Shown here in pieces: positions 54,990 to 60,365 of a stretch of DNA of 64,000 bases. Under the pieces are notes generated by a model. It saw nothing but the letters and a program-made list of their open reading frames with translations. It made no database searches and was not told where the DNA came from. The stretch is from a virus: positions 1 to 64,000 of the IMG/VR virus record IMGVR_UViG_3300032223_000428. The stretch is one strand, 5' to 3'. The position numbers and the translations under genes are program-made. Every line of letters starts with the position of its first letter. Position 1 is the stretch's first letter.

Positions 54990-54998
54990 AGTGAGGGT

Positions 54999-55006
54999 TA
55001 TTTATC
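54999..55006 (-). promoter_or_regulatory. Late-promoter-like box (GATAAATA) for the gp48 operon
   Basis: The minus strand reads GATAAATA, one mismatch from the late consensus, with a leader of about 22 nt to the gp48 ATG. It is the only visible promoter at the head of the leftward baseplate operon. Confidence 0.55.
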
Positions 55007-55020
55007 CTTATTACTTATTT

Positions 55021-55446
55021 ATGTTCCATAAAAGATTGTTCAAACCTATATTTCCAGAAAAGTATGCTGGGGATCCGACTAATATCATAATGAGATCTAG
55101 TTGGGAGACCAAGTTCGCCAATTGGTGTGACAAAAATCCCAGTATTATTAGATGGAGTTCAGAAGAGACAGTTATACCATATCGCTGTCCAACGGATAAT
55201 CACATTCATCGTTATTTCGTTGATTTTAAAATAACAACATCTAATAACAAAACATATTTGATAGAAGTTAAACCAGAAAAGCAGACAAAACCACCTGAAT
55301 ATCCTGGAAAACAAACTAAAAGATATATTATAGAATCGTTAACCTATATGAAAAATCAGGCGAAATGGATAGCTGCACGAGAATATGCAAAAGATCGTGG
55401 GTGGGAATTTAAGATACTAACTGAGTATGAACTTGGGTTGAAGTAA
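55021..55446 (+). CDS. gp4: Head completion protein gp4 (nuclease-fold)
   Basis: In T4 this protein completes packaged heads before tail joining and resembles an endonuclease. The 141-aa product aligns with T4 gp4 along its length: KPIFPEKYAGDPTNIIMRSSWETKFANWCD, WSSEETVIPYRCPTDNHIHRYFVDF, YLIEVKPEKQTKPPE and the ending WAAREYAKDRGWEFKILTEYELG-type C-terminus (here WIAAREYAKDRGWEFKILTE). The ATG at 55021 was chosen because it matches the T4 N-terminus. A GTG at 54991 would add ten residues but lies upstream of the predicted transcript start. Confidence 0.95.
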   Translation: MFHKRLFKPIFPEKYAGDPTNIIMRSSWETKFANWCDKNPSIIRWSSEETVIPYRCPTDNHIHRYFVDFKITTSNNKTYLIEVKPEKQTKPPEYPGKQTKRYIIESLTYMKNQAKWIAAREYAKDRGWEFKILTEYELGLK

Positions 55447-55459
55447 CCTAAATAACATT

Positions 55460-56059
55460 ATGCCCAAAAAACCGATACAAGACGTCTTCGAAAAGAACCA
55501 ATATGATTTAGCGACAGCTGTCAAAAAATCATCAAGTTGGTTTAATAAACAGGTTAGTTCTCTAGCCCAGCAGAACATCACCCCAAATAAAATACTCGGT
55601 GGAAATGTATCGCAAAATACAACTAATATAATGCCTGGAAATCTATACATGTATATGTATGATCCAAAAACAAAAGAAGATTTACCATACTATGATAGAT
55701 TCCCCTTAGTCTTTCCATTTAGGAAAACTGCTGATGGATTCTATGGTTTGAATATGCATTATCTACCATATGATCTTAGAATTTATCTTCTTGATGCGCT
55801 TTTAATCTATAAATCCAATTCTAGAATGGATGATACTACAAGACTGAAATACTCTTGGGCTTTAATTGATGGAGTTTCTAAATTTAAAGCAGCTAGACCA
55901 TGTGTGAAACAATATCTAATGGATCATGTTAGAAGTCCATTTAGAAAGGTAAGTTCCAACGATTGGGCGACAGCTATGTTATTACCAGTAGAAAGATTCG
56001 TTGGTGCAACTAAACAACAAGTCTGGAAAGAGTCCAGAAAAATAATTAGAAAAGCATAA
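55460..56059 (+). CDS. Conserved T4-type protein of unknown function (199 aa)
   Basis: The central part NIMPGNLYMYMYDPKTKEDLPYYDRFPLVFPFRKTADGFYGLNMHYLPYDLRIYLLDAL is of a type seen in structural clusters of T4-like phages, but I cannot attach a function. Later segments are ALIDGVSKFKAARPCVKQYLMDHVRSPFRKVSSNDWATAMLLPVERF. No membrane segment or catalytic motif is visible. The stop overlaps the next start (TAATG). Placement among gp4, tube-initiator and packaging genes suggests a head- or baseplate-assembly role, which is an inference. Confidence 0.65.
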   Translation: MPKKPIQDVFEKNQYDLATAVKKSSSWFNKQVSSLAQQNITPNKILGGNVSQNTTNIMPGNLYMYMYDPKTKEDLPYYDRFPLVFPFRKTADGFYGLNMHYLPYDLRIYLLDALLIYKSNSRMDDTTRLKYSWALIDGVSKFKAARPCVKQYLMDHVRSPFRKVSSNDWATAMLLPVERFVGATKQQVWKESRKIIRKA

Positions 56060-56781
56060 TGGCAACAATAGACAAATTTATCAGCGTAGTAAAGGGAGAT
56101 GGTCTGGCCAGAACAAACAGATTCGTTGTTATGTTCACTCCAACATTTGTACCATTGGGTGGTGGCGATTGGCCATTAGAAAATATTTTAATGTTTTGCG
56201 ATCAGGTACAAATTCCTGGAACAAACTTTAATACTACAGCGAATAGAGTATTTGGTGAAAGTAGAGAAACACCATACGAAAGATTATATGAACCAATTTC
56301 TATGTCTTTTTATGTAGACAGAGGTATGTTCGTTAAGGAATTATTTGATACTTGGATGGAAGCTATTCAAGATCCTGAAACACGTTTATTTAATTTCTAT
56401 GATAATTATACAGTTGATATTTCGATATACGTTGAAGATACACTAAACAAAAAAAGATATTTCGTAGGATTAAAAGAAGCATATCCAAAAAGTATTGATC
56501 CAATACAATTAGATACAAGTTCAAAAGATATTATGAAAATGAATGTTCATTTCGCATACAAATATTATGTAACTCAGGCGGTAGAAGGAGACTTTCATTT
56601 ACAACAGTCAGAAATAGATCAGGCTATGAAAAATAGGTATAGTCCAGATTTTACTACAAATCCTGCTCCAGTTAGCCAAACTCCACAAAATACATTCATG
56701 AGAAAACTACAAAACTTTGCGATTGGAGCCATTGGTTCTAAACTGGTAACAAAATTACCTAGTTTATTAAAAAGAAGATAA
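56059..56781 (+). CDS. gp54: Tail-tube-fold protein, probable gp54 (tube initiator)
   Basis: The 240-aa product reads like a gp19-type tube protein: ARTNRFVVMFTPTF near 16-30, FCDQVQIPGTNFNTTANRVFGESRETPYERLYEPISMSFYVD at 50-92, FDTWMEAIQDPETRLFNFYDNYTVDISIYV, and KEAYPKSIDPIQLDTSSKDIMKMNVHFAYKYY. In T4, gp48 and gp54 share the tube fold and cap the hub. gp48 is identified elsewhere in this window, so this is the best gp54 candidate. It is shorter than T4 gp54 (320 aa). A basic C-terminal helix ends the protein. Confidence 0.7.
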   Translation: MATIDKFISVVKGDGLARTNRFVVMFTPTFVPLGGGDWPLENILMFCDQVQIPGTNFNTTANRVFGESRETPYERLYEPISMSFYVDRGMFVKELFDTWMEAIQDPETRLFNFYDNYTVDISIYVEDTLNKKRYFVGLKEAYPKSIDPIQLDTSSKDIMKMNVHFAYKYYVTQAVEGDFHLQQSEIDQAMKNRYSPDFTTNPAPVSQTPQNTFMRKLQNFAIGAIGSKLVTKLPSLLKRR

Positions 56782-56791
56782 GGAACTAAAC

Positions 56792-57265
56792 ATGACACAA
56801 GAAGTTAAAAAAGACGAAGATTGGATGCAAAAGAAGTGGCGTCCAGCAATGGGTTGGATGTACATGATTGTATGTATGTGTGACATGGTTGTATTTCCAG
56901 TATGCTGGAGTATTTTACAAGCATTAACTCATACACAAATCACTCAATGGAACCCATTAACACTTCAAGGTGCTGGTCTATTTCATTTAGCAATGGGCGC
57001 AGTATTAGGTATCGCAGCATTCGGTCGCACACAAGAAAAAATTGCAGGGAGCGCAACAAATGCCACGCCAACTACTACCACACCAACAACGCCATCCTTC
57101 CCAGTTGGCATGTCAACAACATCTAGCTTACCTGCGACAAACACAAGTTCATTCGGATCACAACCCTTGGCTAGTCCAAGTAGCTTTGGAAGCGCATCTT
57201 CAACAGGTTTTGGCTCTGGGCTATCCCCAGATGATCCTCCAACAAGAAACACGAGAAACGATTAA
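56792..57265 (+). CDS. Holin-like membrane protein (3TM gene-transfer-release type)
   Basis: The 157-aa protein has WMQKKWRPAMGWMYMIVCMCDMVVFPVCWSIL near residues 11-41, the hallmark of the GTA/3TM holin type, and a second membrane segment near 60-78 (GAGLFHLAMGAVLGIAAFG). The C-terminal half is Thr/Ser/Pro-rich and disordered (TTTTPTTPSFPVG). Holins of this type form membrane lesions that release endolysin and virions. No separate endolysin gene is in the window. The gene sits in a structural operon, so lysis timing would be late. An AAGGA ribosome site precedes it. Confidence 0.7.
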   Translation: MTQEVKKDEDWMQKKWRPAMGWMYMIVCMCDMVVFPVCWSILQALTHTQITQWNPLTLQGAGLFHLAMGAVLGIAAFGRTQEKIAGSATNATPTTTTPTTPSFPVGMSTTSSLPATNTSSFGSQPLASPSSFGSASSTGFGSGLSPDDPPTRNTRND

Positions 57266-57267
57266 TA

Positions 57268-57678
57268 ATGAAAATAGATGATTCTTTATCAGAAGTCTTT
57301 GACATCCCAACGATGCCAAAGAATGAATTGGTTATATCAAATACTGAAGAAGTTAAACCCAATGAGAGGATTGAATCTGACTATGACACAGCCAGAGAAA
57401 ATCTACGTGAACTTTTAATAACTGGACAGAATGCATTAATGCATTCTTTGGAAGTTGCTAAACAATCTGAACACCCACGTGCTTTTGAAGTAGTGGGTAA
57501 TTTAATAAAACAACTTGCTGATGTTAACCAACAACTTATGGATCTACATCAGCAAAAACAGAAGTTAGATGCTCCCGTGAAAGGTGAAGCGAAAAAAGTG
57601 ACGAATAATGCTATCTTTGTGGGTAGCACAACTGAGTTGAATAAGTTTATTAAAAATAGTATGTCTAAAGGAGAATAA
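57268..57678 (+). CDS. gp16: Terminase small subunit gp16
   Basis: This protein recognises DNA and stimulates the gp17 ATPase. The 136-aa product shows the T4-like gp16 pattern: DYDTARENLRELLITGQNALMHSLEVAKQSEHPRAFEVVGNLIKQLADVNQQLMDLHQQKQKLD at about 37-100, and NNAIFVGSTTELNKFIKN near the C-terminus. T4 gp16 has 164 residues. In T4 it lies directly upstream of gp17. Here it is 47 kb away from gp17 and on the opposite strand. It starts 2 bases after the holin stop, and its end carries the AAAGGAG ribosome site of gp26. Confidence 0.9.
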   Translation: MKIDDSLSEVFDIPTMPKNELVISNTEEVKPNERIESDYDTARENLRELLITGQNALMHSLEVAKQSEHPRAFEVVGNLIKQLADVNQQLMDLHQQKQKLDAPVKGEAKKVTNNAIFVGSTTELNKFIKNSMSKGE

Positions 57679-57679
57679 T

Positions 57680-58402
57680 ATGACATTGCCAGTAATGAGT
57701 ACACCAACATATAGTTTGGTAATACCTTCCACTAAAGAATCTGTTAAGTACAGACCATTTTTAGTTAAAGAAGAAAAGGCATTATTGATAGCACAACAAA
57801 GTGAAGATGCTGTCGTTATGGTTGATACGTTAAAGAGTGTAATTAAATCATGTGTTTTAAGTAAGATAGATCCAAACTCTCTGTCTACATTCGATTTAGA
57901 ATACTTGTTCACACAAATTAGAGCTAAATCTGTGGGAGAAATTATTGAGTTATTGTTTCCATGCGATAATGATCATGGTGAACAGAACGATAAAGCAAAG
58001 GTAAAAATTTCTATCGATCTTACTAAAATTGAAGTTGATTTCCCAGAAGGGCATCAAAGTAAAATTGAGTTGTTTGGTAATGTTGGTGTTATGATGAAAT
58101 ACCCAACTATTGAGATTATGACTAAGTTAGAAAAGACTGACCATGATGATTTAGATAATATTTTTGATATTGTTGCTAGTTGCATTGATTACATTTACGA
58201 AGATGATGTTATTCATTATGCCAAAGAACAAAAGAAACAAGATCTACTAGAATTTTTATATAACTTAAACTCTGAACAATTCGTTAAAGTACAAAATTTC
58301 TTTGCTACATTGCCTAGAATTAAAAAAGAAGTTGAATATGACTGCCCAATTTGCAATTTGCACCATAAGAAAACTTTGGAGGGAATGCAAAGTTTTTTTT
58401 AA
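57680..58402 (+). CDS. gp26: Baseplate hub assembly protein gp26-like (T4_baseplate family)
   Basis: The 240-aa protein resembles the T4 gp26-type hub assembly family: SLVIPSTKESVKYRPFLVKEEKALLIAQQSEDAVVMVDTLKSVIKSCVL near 13-60, FDLEYLFTQIRAKSVGEIIELLF near 72-95, and a C-terminal YDCPICNLHHKK metal-knuckle-like motif. The frame ends AGT TTT TTT TAA. The T7 stretch forms a slippery heptamer in register, from which a -1 shift continues into the next frame. It lies two genes before the usual tape-measure position, exactly where lambda-type tail chaperones G/GT are encoded. Confidence 0.85.
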   Translation: MTLPVMSTPTYSLVIPSTKESVKYRPFLVKEEKALLIAQQSEDAVVMVDTLKSVIKSCVLSKIDPNSLSTFDLEYLFTQIRAKSVGEIIELLFPCDNDHGEQNDKAKVKISIDLTKIEVDFPEGHQSKIELFGNVGVMMKYPTIEIMTKLEKTDHDDLDNIFDIVASCIDYIYEDDVIHYAKEQKKQDLLEFLYNLNSEQFVKVQNFFATLPRIKKEVEYDCPICNLHHKKTLEGMQSFF

Positions 58403-58584
58403 TAAATCTCTGCCATGAAAGTTTGGTAAATTACTATAAAATGAATTTCGCTTTGATTCAATACCACAAATACTCTTTGGCAGAGATTGAAAATATGATA
58501 CCCTTTGAAAGAGAAATTTATGTACACATGTTAATTAACTATCTTGAAGAAGAAAAACAAAGACTAGATTCACAAAAGAGATAA
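57680..58584 (+). CDS. Predicted -1 frameshift product: gp26-like fused to 61-aa extension (301 aa)
   Basis: After Phe240 a -1 slip at 58393-58399 (T TTT TTT) continues in the frame TTA ATA AAT CTC TGC. This adds 61 residues: LINLCHESLVNYYKMNF, then YHKYSLAEIENMIPFEREIYVHMLINYLEEE, ending SQKR at 58584. The extension frame is open without a stop from the slip to the end, and its content is charged and helical as in gpT-type extensions. A shorter alternative is independent initiation at the ATG 58441 (47 aa), but no good ribosome site precedes it. The product ends two bases before the gp29 ATG. Confidence 0.8.
58393..58488 (+). other. Programmed -1 frameshift signal: slippery T7, spacer, 11-bp stem
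   Basis: The slippery heptamer T TTT TTT (58393-58399) lies in the gp26 frame directly before its TAA. After a 5-nt spacer, 58405-58415 (AATCTCTGCCA) pairs perfectly with 58478-58488 (TGGCAGAGATT), closing a 62-nt loop. The pieces and their spacing match known -1 frameshift stimulators. The loop may fold further; pseudoknot pairing was not established. Confidence 0.85.
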
Positions 58585-58586
58585 AA

Positions 58587-60365
58587 ATGCCAAAAAGAAA
58601 AAGTAAACCACAACAACCTGCTGGAATCCAATCAATTCAGCAAACCATTACCCAATCAGTAGTTGCATGGGATGATGTCGCTTTTTCTAAATTACTCGAA
58701 ACTCAAAAAGCAGCTCTTGGTGAACTTACCGCAGTTAAAACATTACTTGAACTTTCCAAAGAAGTTAAAAAAGCAGAAACCCCTGTAGCAGAAGCACCCA
58801 CTAATACTAGAAATATTTCTCCAGAGATATTAGCACTTAGAGCATTAAAAGAAAAACAAGCTAAACAAATAACACCAACTGCTGCAGCTGCTGCACCTGA
58901 TCTTGATAGAATCCAAGAAAAGATGTTTGAAATTGCTAAAGAACATTTAAAAGTTAGCAGAAAAACACTAAAAACTCAAGAAGACTTTCAAAAAGAGTGG
59001 GATGTTGAAGCAAAGAATATTGCTGAGATGGCAAAGGGTATGAAAGTATTTAAATCTTTCGGTGAAAAAGCAGCTGATAAAAAAGCAGCATTATCTGAGA
59101 AATATGGAATTGCAAATGGTGGTTTAAAGAAAACTGTACTTGGTGCAATGAATGTTGGTGGAATCTTTAATAAAACATTAGCAAGAGATGAGTTCGTTAA
59201 GAAACAACAAGCACTTGGTAGCAAAGCATCTGTTAAAGAATTGAAATCAGATTTTGAAGGTGCTCAAACAGCAACAAAAGCAATTCAAAAGAACGAAAAG
59301 AAAATCCAAGATCTAAAAGATTTAACTGGTGCGGACGAAGATGAATTAAAAGTTCATCATTCTCATCTATTCGAAGAACGCCAGACACAAACAGAACAAT
59401 TGAGTAAGTACGATCGTGGTGCTAGATTATTCAGTCCAGATAAAAAGAATGCAAAACTGGCTGGATTAATACCAACTGCTGGTGCTCCTGTTATGGGCAA
59501 AACACCTACATCTGCAGCAGCGGACGTTGGTAAAACTGCTGAATCTGAAGAAGAAAATGGAAGAGTGCAAAAAGAGCAAGAAGAAACACTCAAGAAAATT
59601 GAAAAAAATACTGAGGGGTTGGGACTTATAAGTGCCAAGAAAGAAGAAAAGAAACCAGAGCCTGTTAAAGAAGAAGGTGGTATACTTAATACCATTATGA
59701 GTTTCTTGGGTGCAGGTTTGATAGCATCATTTAAAGCGATGTTTAATCCAAAAAATATTTTGAAATTCTTAGGTAAAGCATTCGCCATTGGTGCAATTAT
59801 TGGTGCATTATGGGAAGGTATTAGTGATGGTTTCGATGAGTTTATGAAGACAGGAGATATCGGTAAAGCACTTATTGCTGGTCTTGCTGGTATTATAGAC
59901 TTCTTAACATTCGGTCTATTCGATAAAGAAAAGATTAAAGCAGTTATCGGAGATATGGCTGCATGGACTAATGAACATATCGTTAAACCAGTGACAGAAT
60001 TTTTCACATCAATGAAAGATGCTTTTATGGGTATGCTATCTAAGATAGGCATCCCAGAAATAACATTATTAGATAATAAATTAACTGGTAAAGTTACTGT
60101 TGGTCCATTCTATCCATTTAAAGATACTGCACCAACACCAGCAGGAAAAACACCAGAAGCACCAACACCAACTTCTGCAAATACAGTTGAACAAAAATCT
60201 AGTGACAACAAAGCAGCAGAAATACAGGCTGGTGGTGCCACTACTAATACAACAGTCGTTAACGCTCCAGTTAATAATAATTCTACAACAAATAGAATGT
60301 CACAACCTGCTATTCGAAATCAAGAATCTAGTGTTTCTAGGTATATCGGTTCAAGATACGCATAA
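58587..60365 (+). CDS. gp29: Tape measure / hub protein gp29
   Basis: In T4 gp29 extends from the hub through the tube and sets tail length. The 592 residues are almost the same as T4 gp29 (590). The N-terminal half is charged and helical (coiled-coil-like, EIAKEHLKVSRKTLKTQEDFQKEW). The middle has Ala/Gly-rich hydrophobic helices (NTIMSFLGAGLIASFKAMFNPKNILKFLGKAFAIGAIIGALW at about 370-412, LIAGLAGIIDFLTFGLF). The C-terminus is Thr/Asn-rich and disordered. Position immediately after the frameshift pair supports the tape-measure call. Confidence 0.85.
   Translation: MPKRKSKPQQPAGIQSIQQTITQSVVAWDDVAFSKLLETQKAALGELTAVKTLLELSKEVKKAETPVAEAPTNTRNISPEILALRALKEKQAKQITPTAAAAAPDLDRIQEKMFEIAKEHLKVSRKTLKTQEDFQKEWDVEAKNIAEMAKGMKVFKSFGEKAADKKAALSEKYGIANGGLKKTVLGAMNVGGIFNKTLARDEFVKKQQALGSKASVKELKSDFEGAQTATKAIQKNEKKIQDLKDLTGADEDELKVHHSHLFEERQTQTEQLSKYDRGARLFSPDKKNAKLAGLIPTAGAPVMGKTPTSAAADVGKTAESEEENGRVQKEQEETLKKIEKNTEGLGLISAKKEEKKPEPVKEEGGILNTIMSFLGAGLIASFKAMFNPKNILKFLGKAFAIGAIIGALWEGISDGFDEFMKTGDIGKALIAGLAGIIDFLTFGLFDKEKIKAVIGDMAAWTNEHIVKPVTEFFTSMKDAFMGMLSKIGIPEITLLDNKLTGKVTVGPFYPFKDTAPTPAGKTPEAPTPTSANTVEQKSSDNKAAEIQAGGATTNTTVVNAPVNNNSTTNRMSQPAIRNQESSVSRYIGSRYA

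Follow-up and report, generated by a model that had tools for sequence, protein, structure and literature searches.

In the window analyzed here, the first 64,000 nucleotides (nt) of the 76,579-base virus record IMGVR_UViG_3300032223_000428 (IMG/VR), a gp26-like gene of the T4 type very probably ends in a programmed -1 ribosomal frameshift that would yield a short and a long tail assembly chaperone. An earlier note on this DNA had proposed such a pair, comparable to G and GT of phage lambda and made by a -1 shift at the end of gp26. Reading phase, slippery heptamer, selection on the -1 frame, RNA structure and predicted chaperone fold, all of them features of the sequence itself together with a Shine-Dalgarno (SD)-like element that the note had overlooked, lend this core claim strong support.

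The gp26-like gene (57680..58402, + strand, like the junction elements and the downstream ORF described below) encodes a protein of 240 amino acids (aa), the putative short tail assembly chaperone (TAC-N), with matches to PF12322 (E 8.6e-58) and phrog_150 (E 4e-64). Its last codons, AGT TTT TTT TAA, include a run of eight T (58393-58400), in which the slippery heptamer T TTT TTT (58393..58399) lies in register with the 0 frame and adjoins the stop TAA (58400..58402) at its 3' end. The -1 frame (58399..58584, closed by TAA at 58582-58584) encodes a gp51-type C-terminal tail, according to matches with phrog_634 (gp51, E 1.2e-25) and with the C-terminus of phrog_150 (E 1.1e-5). The predicted fusion of gp26 and this tail has 301 aa, the junction reading ...MQSFF-LINLCHES..., and the predicted junction-spanning peptide is TLEGMQSFFLINLCHESLVNYYK. 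Downstream of the heptamer, a spacer of 5 nt including the stop (TAATA, 58400-58404) is followed by the 5' arm (58405..58415, AATCTCTGCCA) and, further on, the 3' arm (58478..58488, TGGCAGAGATT) of a stem with 11/11 complementary positions, a candidate 3' stimulator. Direct reading thus returned heptamer, stop, spacer and stem exactly where the earlier note had placed them, and likewise a -1 frame that is open for 61 codons and ends two bases 5' of the next gene, whose ATG is at 58587.

The frame relation and the heptamer recur throughout the related loci compared. The comparison set comprised 160 loci from viral contigs, a few contigs being represented twice; 159 of the loci contain the gp26 end and, with the window, make 160 sequences with 132 distinct junctions. 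The phase of the small frame is -1 in 159/159 comparable loci and in the window, and in most loci the homology of the tail starts at the slip site. An in-frame T TTT TTY close to the gp26 stop, the conservation of which the earlier note had named as a check, was present in 160/160 sequences (T TTT TTT in 97, T TTT TTC in 63), 8 codons upstream of the stop in 3 of them and within 2 codons in the remainder. For comparison, only 2 of 982 other open reading frames (ORFs) of at least 100 codons from the same loci have T TTT TTY within the last 9 codons. A small frame with a start of its own and no slippery run, which the earlier note had named as evidence against frameshifting, occurred in 0 of the 160 comparable sequences. 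The sequences fall into group A, to which the window belongs and in which the slip site is directly 5' of the stop, and group B, which has one codon between slip site and stop and mostly six T followed by C.

Selection on the -1 frame begins at the slip site. For -1 codons 2-13, which lie 5' of the first ATG of the window's small frame, the ratio of nonsynonymous to synonymous polymorphism (pN/pS) is 0.13 in group A and 0.27 in group B; over the same bases, the other two frames give values of 0.85-2.25. The -1 frame has 0 stops in 39 codons, and the other frames have about 4-5 stops per sequence. The -1 frame is, by this evidence, under purifying selection directly from the slip site, and since the selected codons precede the first ATG, the protein is apparently read from the slip site and not from a later start.

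The overlooked upstream element is GGAGGG at 58378..58383, 9 nt 5' of the heptamer. It is kept in both groups and is likely a 5' stimulator, as judged by an excess of pairing with the anti-SD sequence: mean pairing energies are -8.9 kcal/mol in group A and -7.4 kcal/mol in group B, versus -5.4 and -5.2 kcal/mol after synonymous recoding. No such excess was found at four control positions in gp26. For any single sequence the excess is modest, as recoded sequences equal the natural one in 16% (group A) and 27% (group B) of draws, so that the weight of the SD-like signal comes from consistency across sequences.

RNA structure downstream of the slip site also exceeds what the coding sequence requires. 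In the window, the region folds with -23.2 kcal/mol (z-score -3.7 versus dinucleotide shuffles). Both stem arms sit in conserved codons, and synonymous recoding therefore served as the control for folding; against it, the window has a z-score of -5.7. Over the 102 bases 3' of the slip site, the mean z-score against recoding is -2.6 in group A and -2.2 in group B; other stretches, within gp26 and deeper in the -1 frame, have means between 0 and -1. The exception is the 102 nt ending at the slip site, with a weaker structure excess in group A (mean z-score -1.7) that is absent in group B. In the close clade of the window the 11-bp stem is almost invariant and therefore says little. In a wider set of 25 distinct group A sequences, its covariation score is 0.238, which 0/500 shuffles reach, in a control that does not remove relatedness among the sequences; the best covarying pair is U-A in 8, U-G in 8 and A-U in 7 sequences. 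Both upstream SD-like elements and downstream hairpins are recognized as stimulating -1 frameshifting in bacteria (PMC4066793), and GGAGGG, heptamer and hairpin appear to form a three-part signal of the dnaX type, correctly spaced and conserved beyond coding need.

The observations on the -1 frame have to be weighed against the possibility that it is a separate gene, gp51, with an independent start or reinitiation after the gp26 stop. Most database annotations treat the small frame in this way (among the relatives, for example, P-SSM2 and S-ShM2), the gp26 stop overlaps an ATG in some relatives (TGATG or TAATG), and the -1 frame of the window itself contains two potential starts, TTG at 58423 and ATG at 58441. 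However, the first eight -1 codons of the window are without a start, although strong purifying selection acts on codons 2-13, and one third of the group has TTA, CTT, CTC, CTA or another codon in place of the TTG. A separate gene would also leave the universal in-frame heptamer unexplained, as well as the SD-like element, which has no start codon at the right distance. For the window, an independent start was rejected because of the selection on codons 5' of the first ATG, and we regard the separate-gene explanation as improbable overall.

Still less probable is slippage of RNA polymerase on the T8 run, yielding a fused mRNA. RNA polymerase is known to slip on runs of about nine A or T (PMC5009743), and the window has a T8 run. 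However, frame relation and flanking signals are unchanged in the 63 sequences with T TTT TTC, the majority of which have no more than six T, and a codon register, an SD-like element upstream and RNA structure downstream would be predicted by slippage of the ribosome and not of RNA polymerase. The prevalence of six T and C in group B thus makes both transcriptional slippage and homopolymer error poor alternatives. A sequencing error or a decayed gene, with a lost base splitting one ORF, can be dismissed even though T8 homopolymers are error-prone in some sequencing methods, because the same -1 phase recurs at 132 distinct junctions, also where C follows six T, and because both frames are under strong selection.

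The predicted structure of gp26, together with the position of the locus, supports a pair of the lambda G/GT type. The AlphaFold2 model (predicted local distance difference test score 87.8) was compared with PDB structures, and after realignment the best match was HK97 gp13 (2ob9; Z 7.7, root mean square deviation (rmsd) 4.3, 84 aligned residues), followed by Rbstp2171 (3fgx; Z 7.4, rmsd 3.6, 85 aligned) and YqbN (3klu; Z 7.2, rmsd 3.9, 85 aligned). All three cover the N-terminal ~90 residues of gp26 (residues 1-94), and all three are named tail assembly chaperones (PMC9603447). Next came a protein of a Vibrio cholerae element resembling phage-inducible chromosomal islands (Z 4.5), with unrelated chains at 2.7 or below. 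No PDB relatives of gp26 were found at the sequence level. The model supports a tail assembly chaperone fold for the N-terminal domain, in line with the earlier suggestion that gp26-like proteins are tail-assembly chaperones.

Together, these features suggest how the two products would arise. Most ribosomes would terminate at the TAA adjoining the heptamer and release the 240-aa short chaperone. In a minority, both Phe tRNAs would re-pair one base further back on the heptamer, and translation would go on in the -1 frame to give the 301-aa long form with its gp51-type tail. Stimulation would probably come from upstream, by pairing of GGAGGG with the tail of 16S rRNA, and from downstream, by the hairpin that begins 5 nt after the heptamer. 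By analogy with lambda gpG/gpGT, from which the roles of short and long forms are taken (PMC5009743), coating of the tape measure protein would fall to the short form and recruitment of tail tube subunits to the long one. That slippage takes place in vivo, how efficient it is and what each product does are conclusions that we infer.

Several observations limit this interpretation or weigh against it. The Z-scores of 7-8 are middling by the comparison tool's own note, and Foldseek alone gave HK97 gp13 a probability of 0.69 but with an E-value of 0.7. In phiM12, phiM9, V09 and YB07, phages introduced below, an ATG overlaps the gp26 stop and would permit reinitiation too. The stem, put forward by the earlier note as a perfect 11-bp helix, stands as such and covaries in the group A set, but the encoded peptides alone would yield about 8.1 of the 11 pairs, so that it is worth less than its appearance. 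It is also limited to the window's clade and some neighbours, with other relatives folding otherwise, and as a universal element it was rejected.

T4 itself is not an instance of the arrangement, contrary to what the earlier note had implied. Its gp26 and gp51 are encoded separately, on opposite strands, as genes 26 and 51 are also separate in PEi20, and both T4 proteins match PF12322 over its full length. Residues 1-201 of T4 gp51 match the whole of PF12322 (E 4e-52), about 48 further residues follow, and phrog_150 spans residues 3-248. The window's -1 tail matches columns 239-276 of the 282 columns of phrog_150; that it matches the C-terminus of the gp26 family is due to T4 gp51 being a PF12322 domain plus an extra tail. 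Judged by these matches, the domains of T4 gp51 recur in the predicted fused product and those of T4 gp26 in the short one. What T4 encodes in two opposite-strand genes, this phage would thus make from one start by frameshifting.

The -1 frameshift arrangement is widespread in T4-like water phages, as far as sequence comparison goes. Among the named phages fetched, it was found in Kyanoviridae, and -1 tail and in-frame heptamer were present in HTVC008M, P-SSM2, Melnitz-3, S-ShM2, S-BM3 and S-CAM1. Both were also found in phiM12 (T TTT TTT) and phiM9 (T TTT TTG), in the KVP40-type Vibrio phage V09, in Stenotrophomonas phage YB07 and in Cronobacter phage LPCS28. In Vibrio D532, Klebsiella Croc_ER14, Det7 and Dickeya JA15 (loci L170, L171, L172 and L174; Det7 and JA15 are Ackermannviridae), no X XXY YYZ heptamer was found, and a -1 tail of 50-59 aa overlaps the gp26 stop; in three of the four, gp26 ends in GAR ATT TTC ATT TAA. 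TGATG or TAATG, with the ATG in the -1 frame, occurs at the gp26 stop in L165, L166, L167, L168, L170 and L174, four times beside a slippery heptamer, and could permit reinitiation in these loci as well.

In aquatic habitats, T4-like phages rank among the most abundant viruses. Where gp51 is annotated in those from water, it is a separate short 'baseplate hub assembly catalyst', and cyanophage gp51 was described as having only ~20% of the usual length, without the first ~200 residues (Sullivan et al., 2010, PMC3037559). The sequence evidence says that this short gp51 piece is the tail of a frameshifted chaperone and not a gene of its own. Such a reading would correct the annotation in hundreds of genomes, and T4 gp26 and gp51, which have long figured as hub proteins without a clear role, would become a testable pair of chaperones for the tape measure protein.

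The arrangement resembles known systems to different degrees. Lambda gpG/gpGT and its counterparts in many tailed phages share the short and long products, the -1 direction and the N-terminal chaperone fold. They differ in that the N-terminal protein is larger in the window (240 aa, PF12322), in that U UUU UUY is placed directly or one codon 5' of the stop in phages of the window's type, and in the conserved SD-like stimulator and downstream hairpin of the latter. In Escherichia coli dnaX, an SD-like element ~10 nt upstream, a slippery heptamer and a hairpin 5-6 nt downstream come in the same order as here, but the dnaX heptamer is A AAA AAG instead of U-rich, and the shift gives a shorter instead of a longer product. 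Vandenendeviridae and Andersonviridae (phage Adele, PMC12846349) have a -1 shift at a GTTTTT-containing motif ending the short chaperone gene, and there too the downstream part is routinely misannotated; these are other phage families, likened here by arrangement.

The earlier note knew of no report of frameshifting for gp26/gp51, and our full-text literature search, which did not cover Vladimirov, Gautam and Davidson (2022, Virology 566:9-15), found none naming it. Nevertheless, as far as citing papers tell (PMC10274946, PMC12846349), that study already identified the tail assembly chaperones of T4-like phages, and PMC12846349 credits it with poly-T slippery sequences in them; the statement about missing reports was thus not borne out, and the kind of system is already known. 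The chaperones so described appear to belong to the same protein family, their identity with gp26/gp51 being our reading of these citations. The novelty of the frameshift is thus modest, and its mechanism is well supported. Possibly new are the SD-like stimulator, the evidence that RNA structure is selected, and the breadth of occurrence; the stimulator would, if real, be an undescribed part of tail chaperone frameshifting. Our tentative view, for which we see slightly less than an even chance, is that the signal of GGAGGG, T TTT TTY and hairpin is ancestral for the T4-type chaperone pair and was kept in cyanophages, pelagiphages, KVP40-like and rhizobial phages, that T4 and close kin replaced it by gene duplication, and that Ackermannviridae keep the -1 tail without the heptamer. 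T4 would then be a case of one translational trick replaced by gene duplication.

The gene 3' of the -1 frame is a 592-aa ORF (58587..60365), which begins 2 nt after the -1 frame ends and is likely the tape measure protein, as judged from position and size. A similar ORF is located directly 3' in 89 relatives. Neither T4 gp29 nor the annotated tape measure protein of HTVC008M was matched significantly by the ORF, which also had no Pfam match and no significant PHROG match, and the name gp29, used in the earlier note, is for this reason a label by position. Upstream, a 157-aa ORF (56792-57262) matches GTA_holin_3TM (PF11351, E 1.4e-5) and a PHROG holin family; it lies between the tail tube gene and a small terminase-like gene, an unusual location for a holin. 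The order over 54991-60365 is head closure, DNA end protector, tail tube, holin-like, small terminase-like, gp26, -1 tail and probable tape measure, which is partly common to HTVC008M, P-SSM2 and phiM12 and unlike that of T4.
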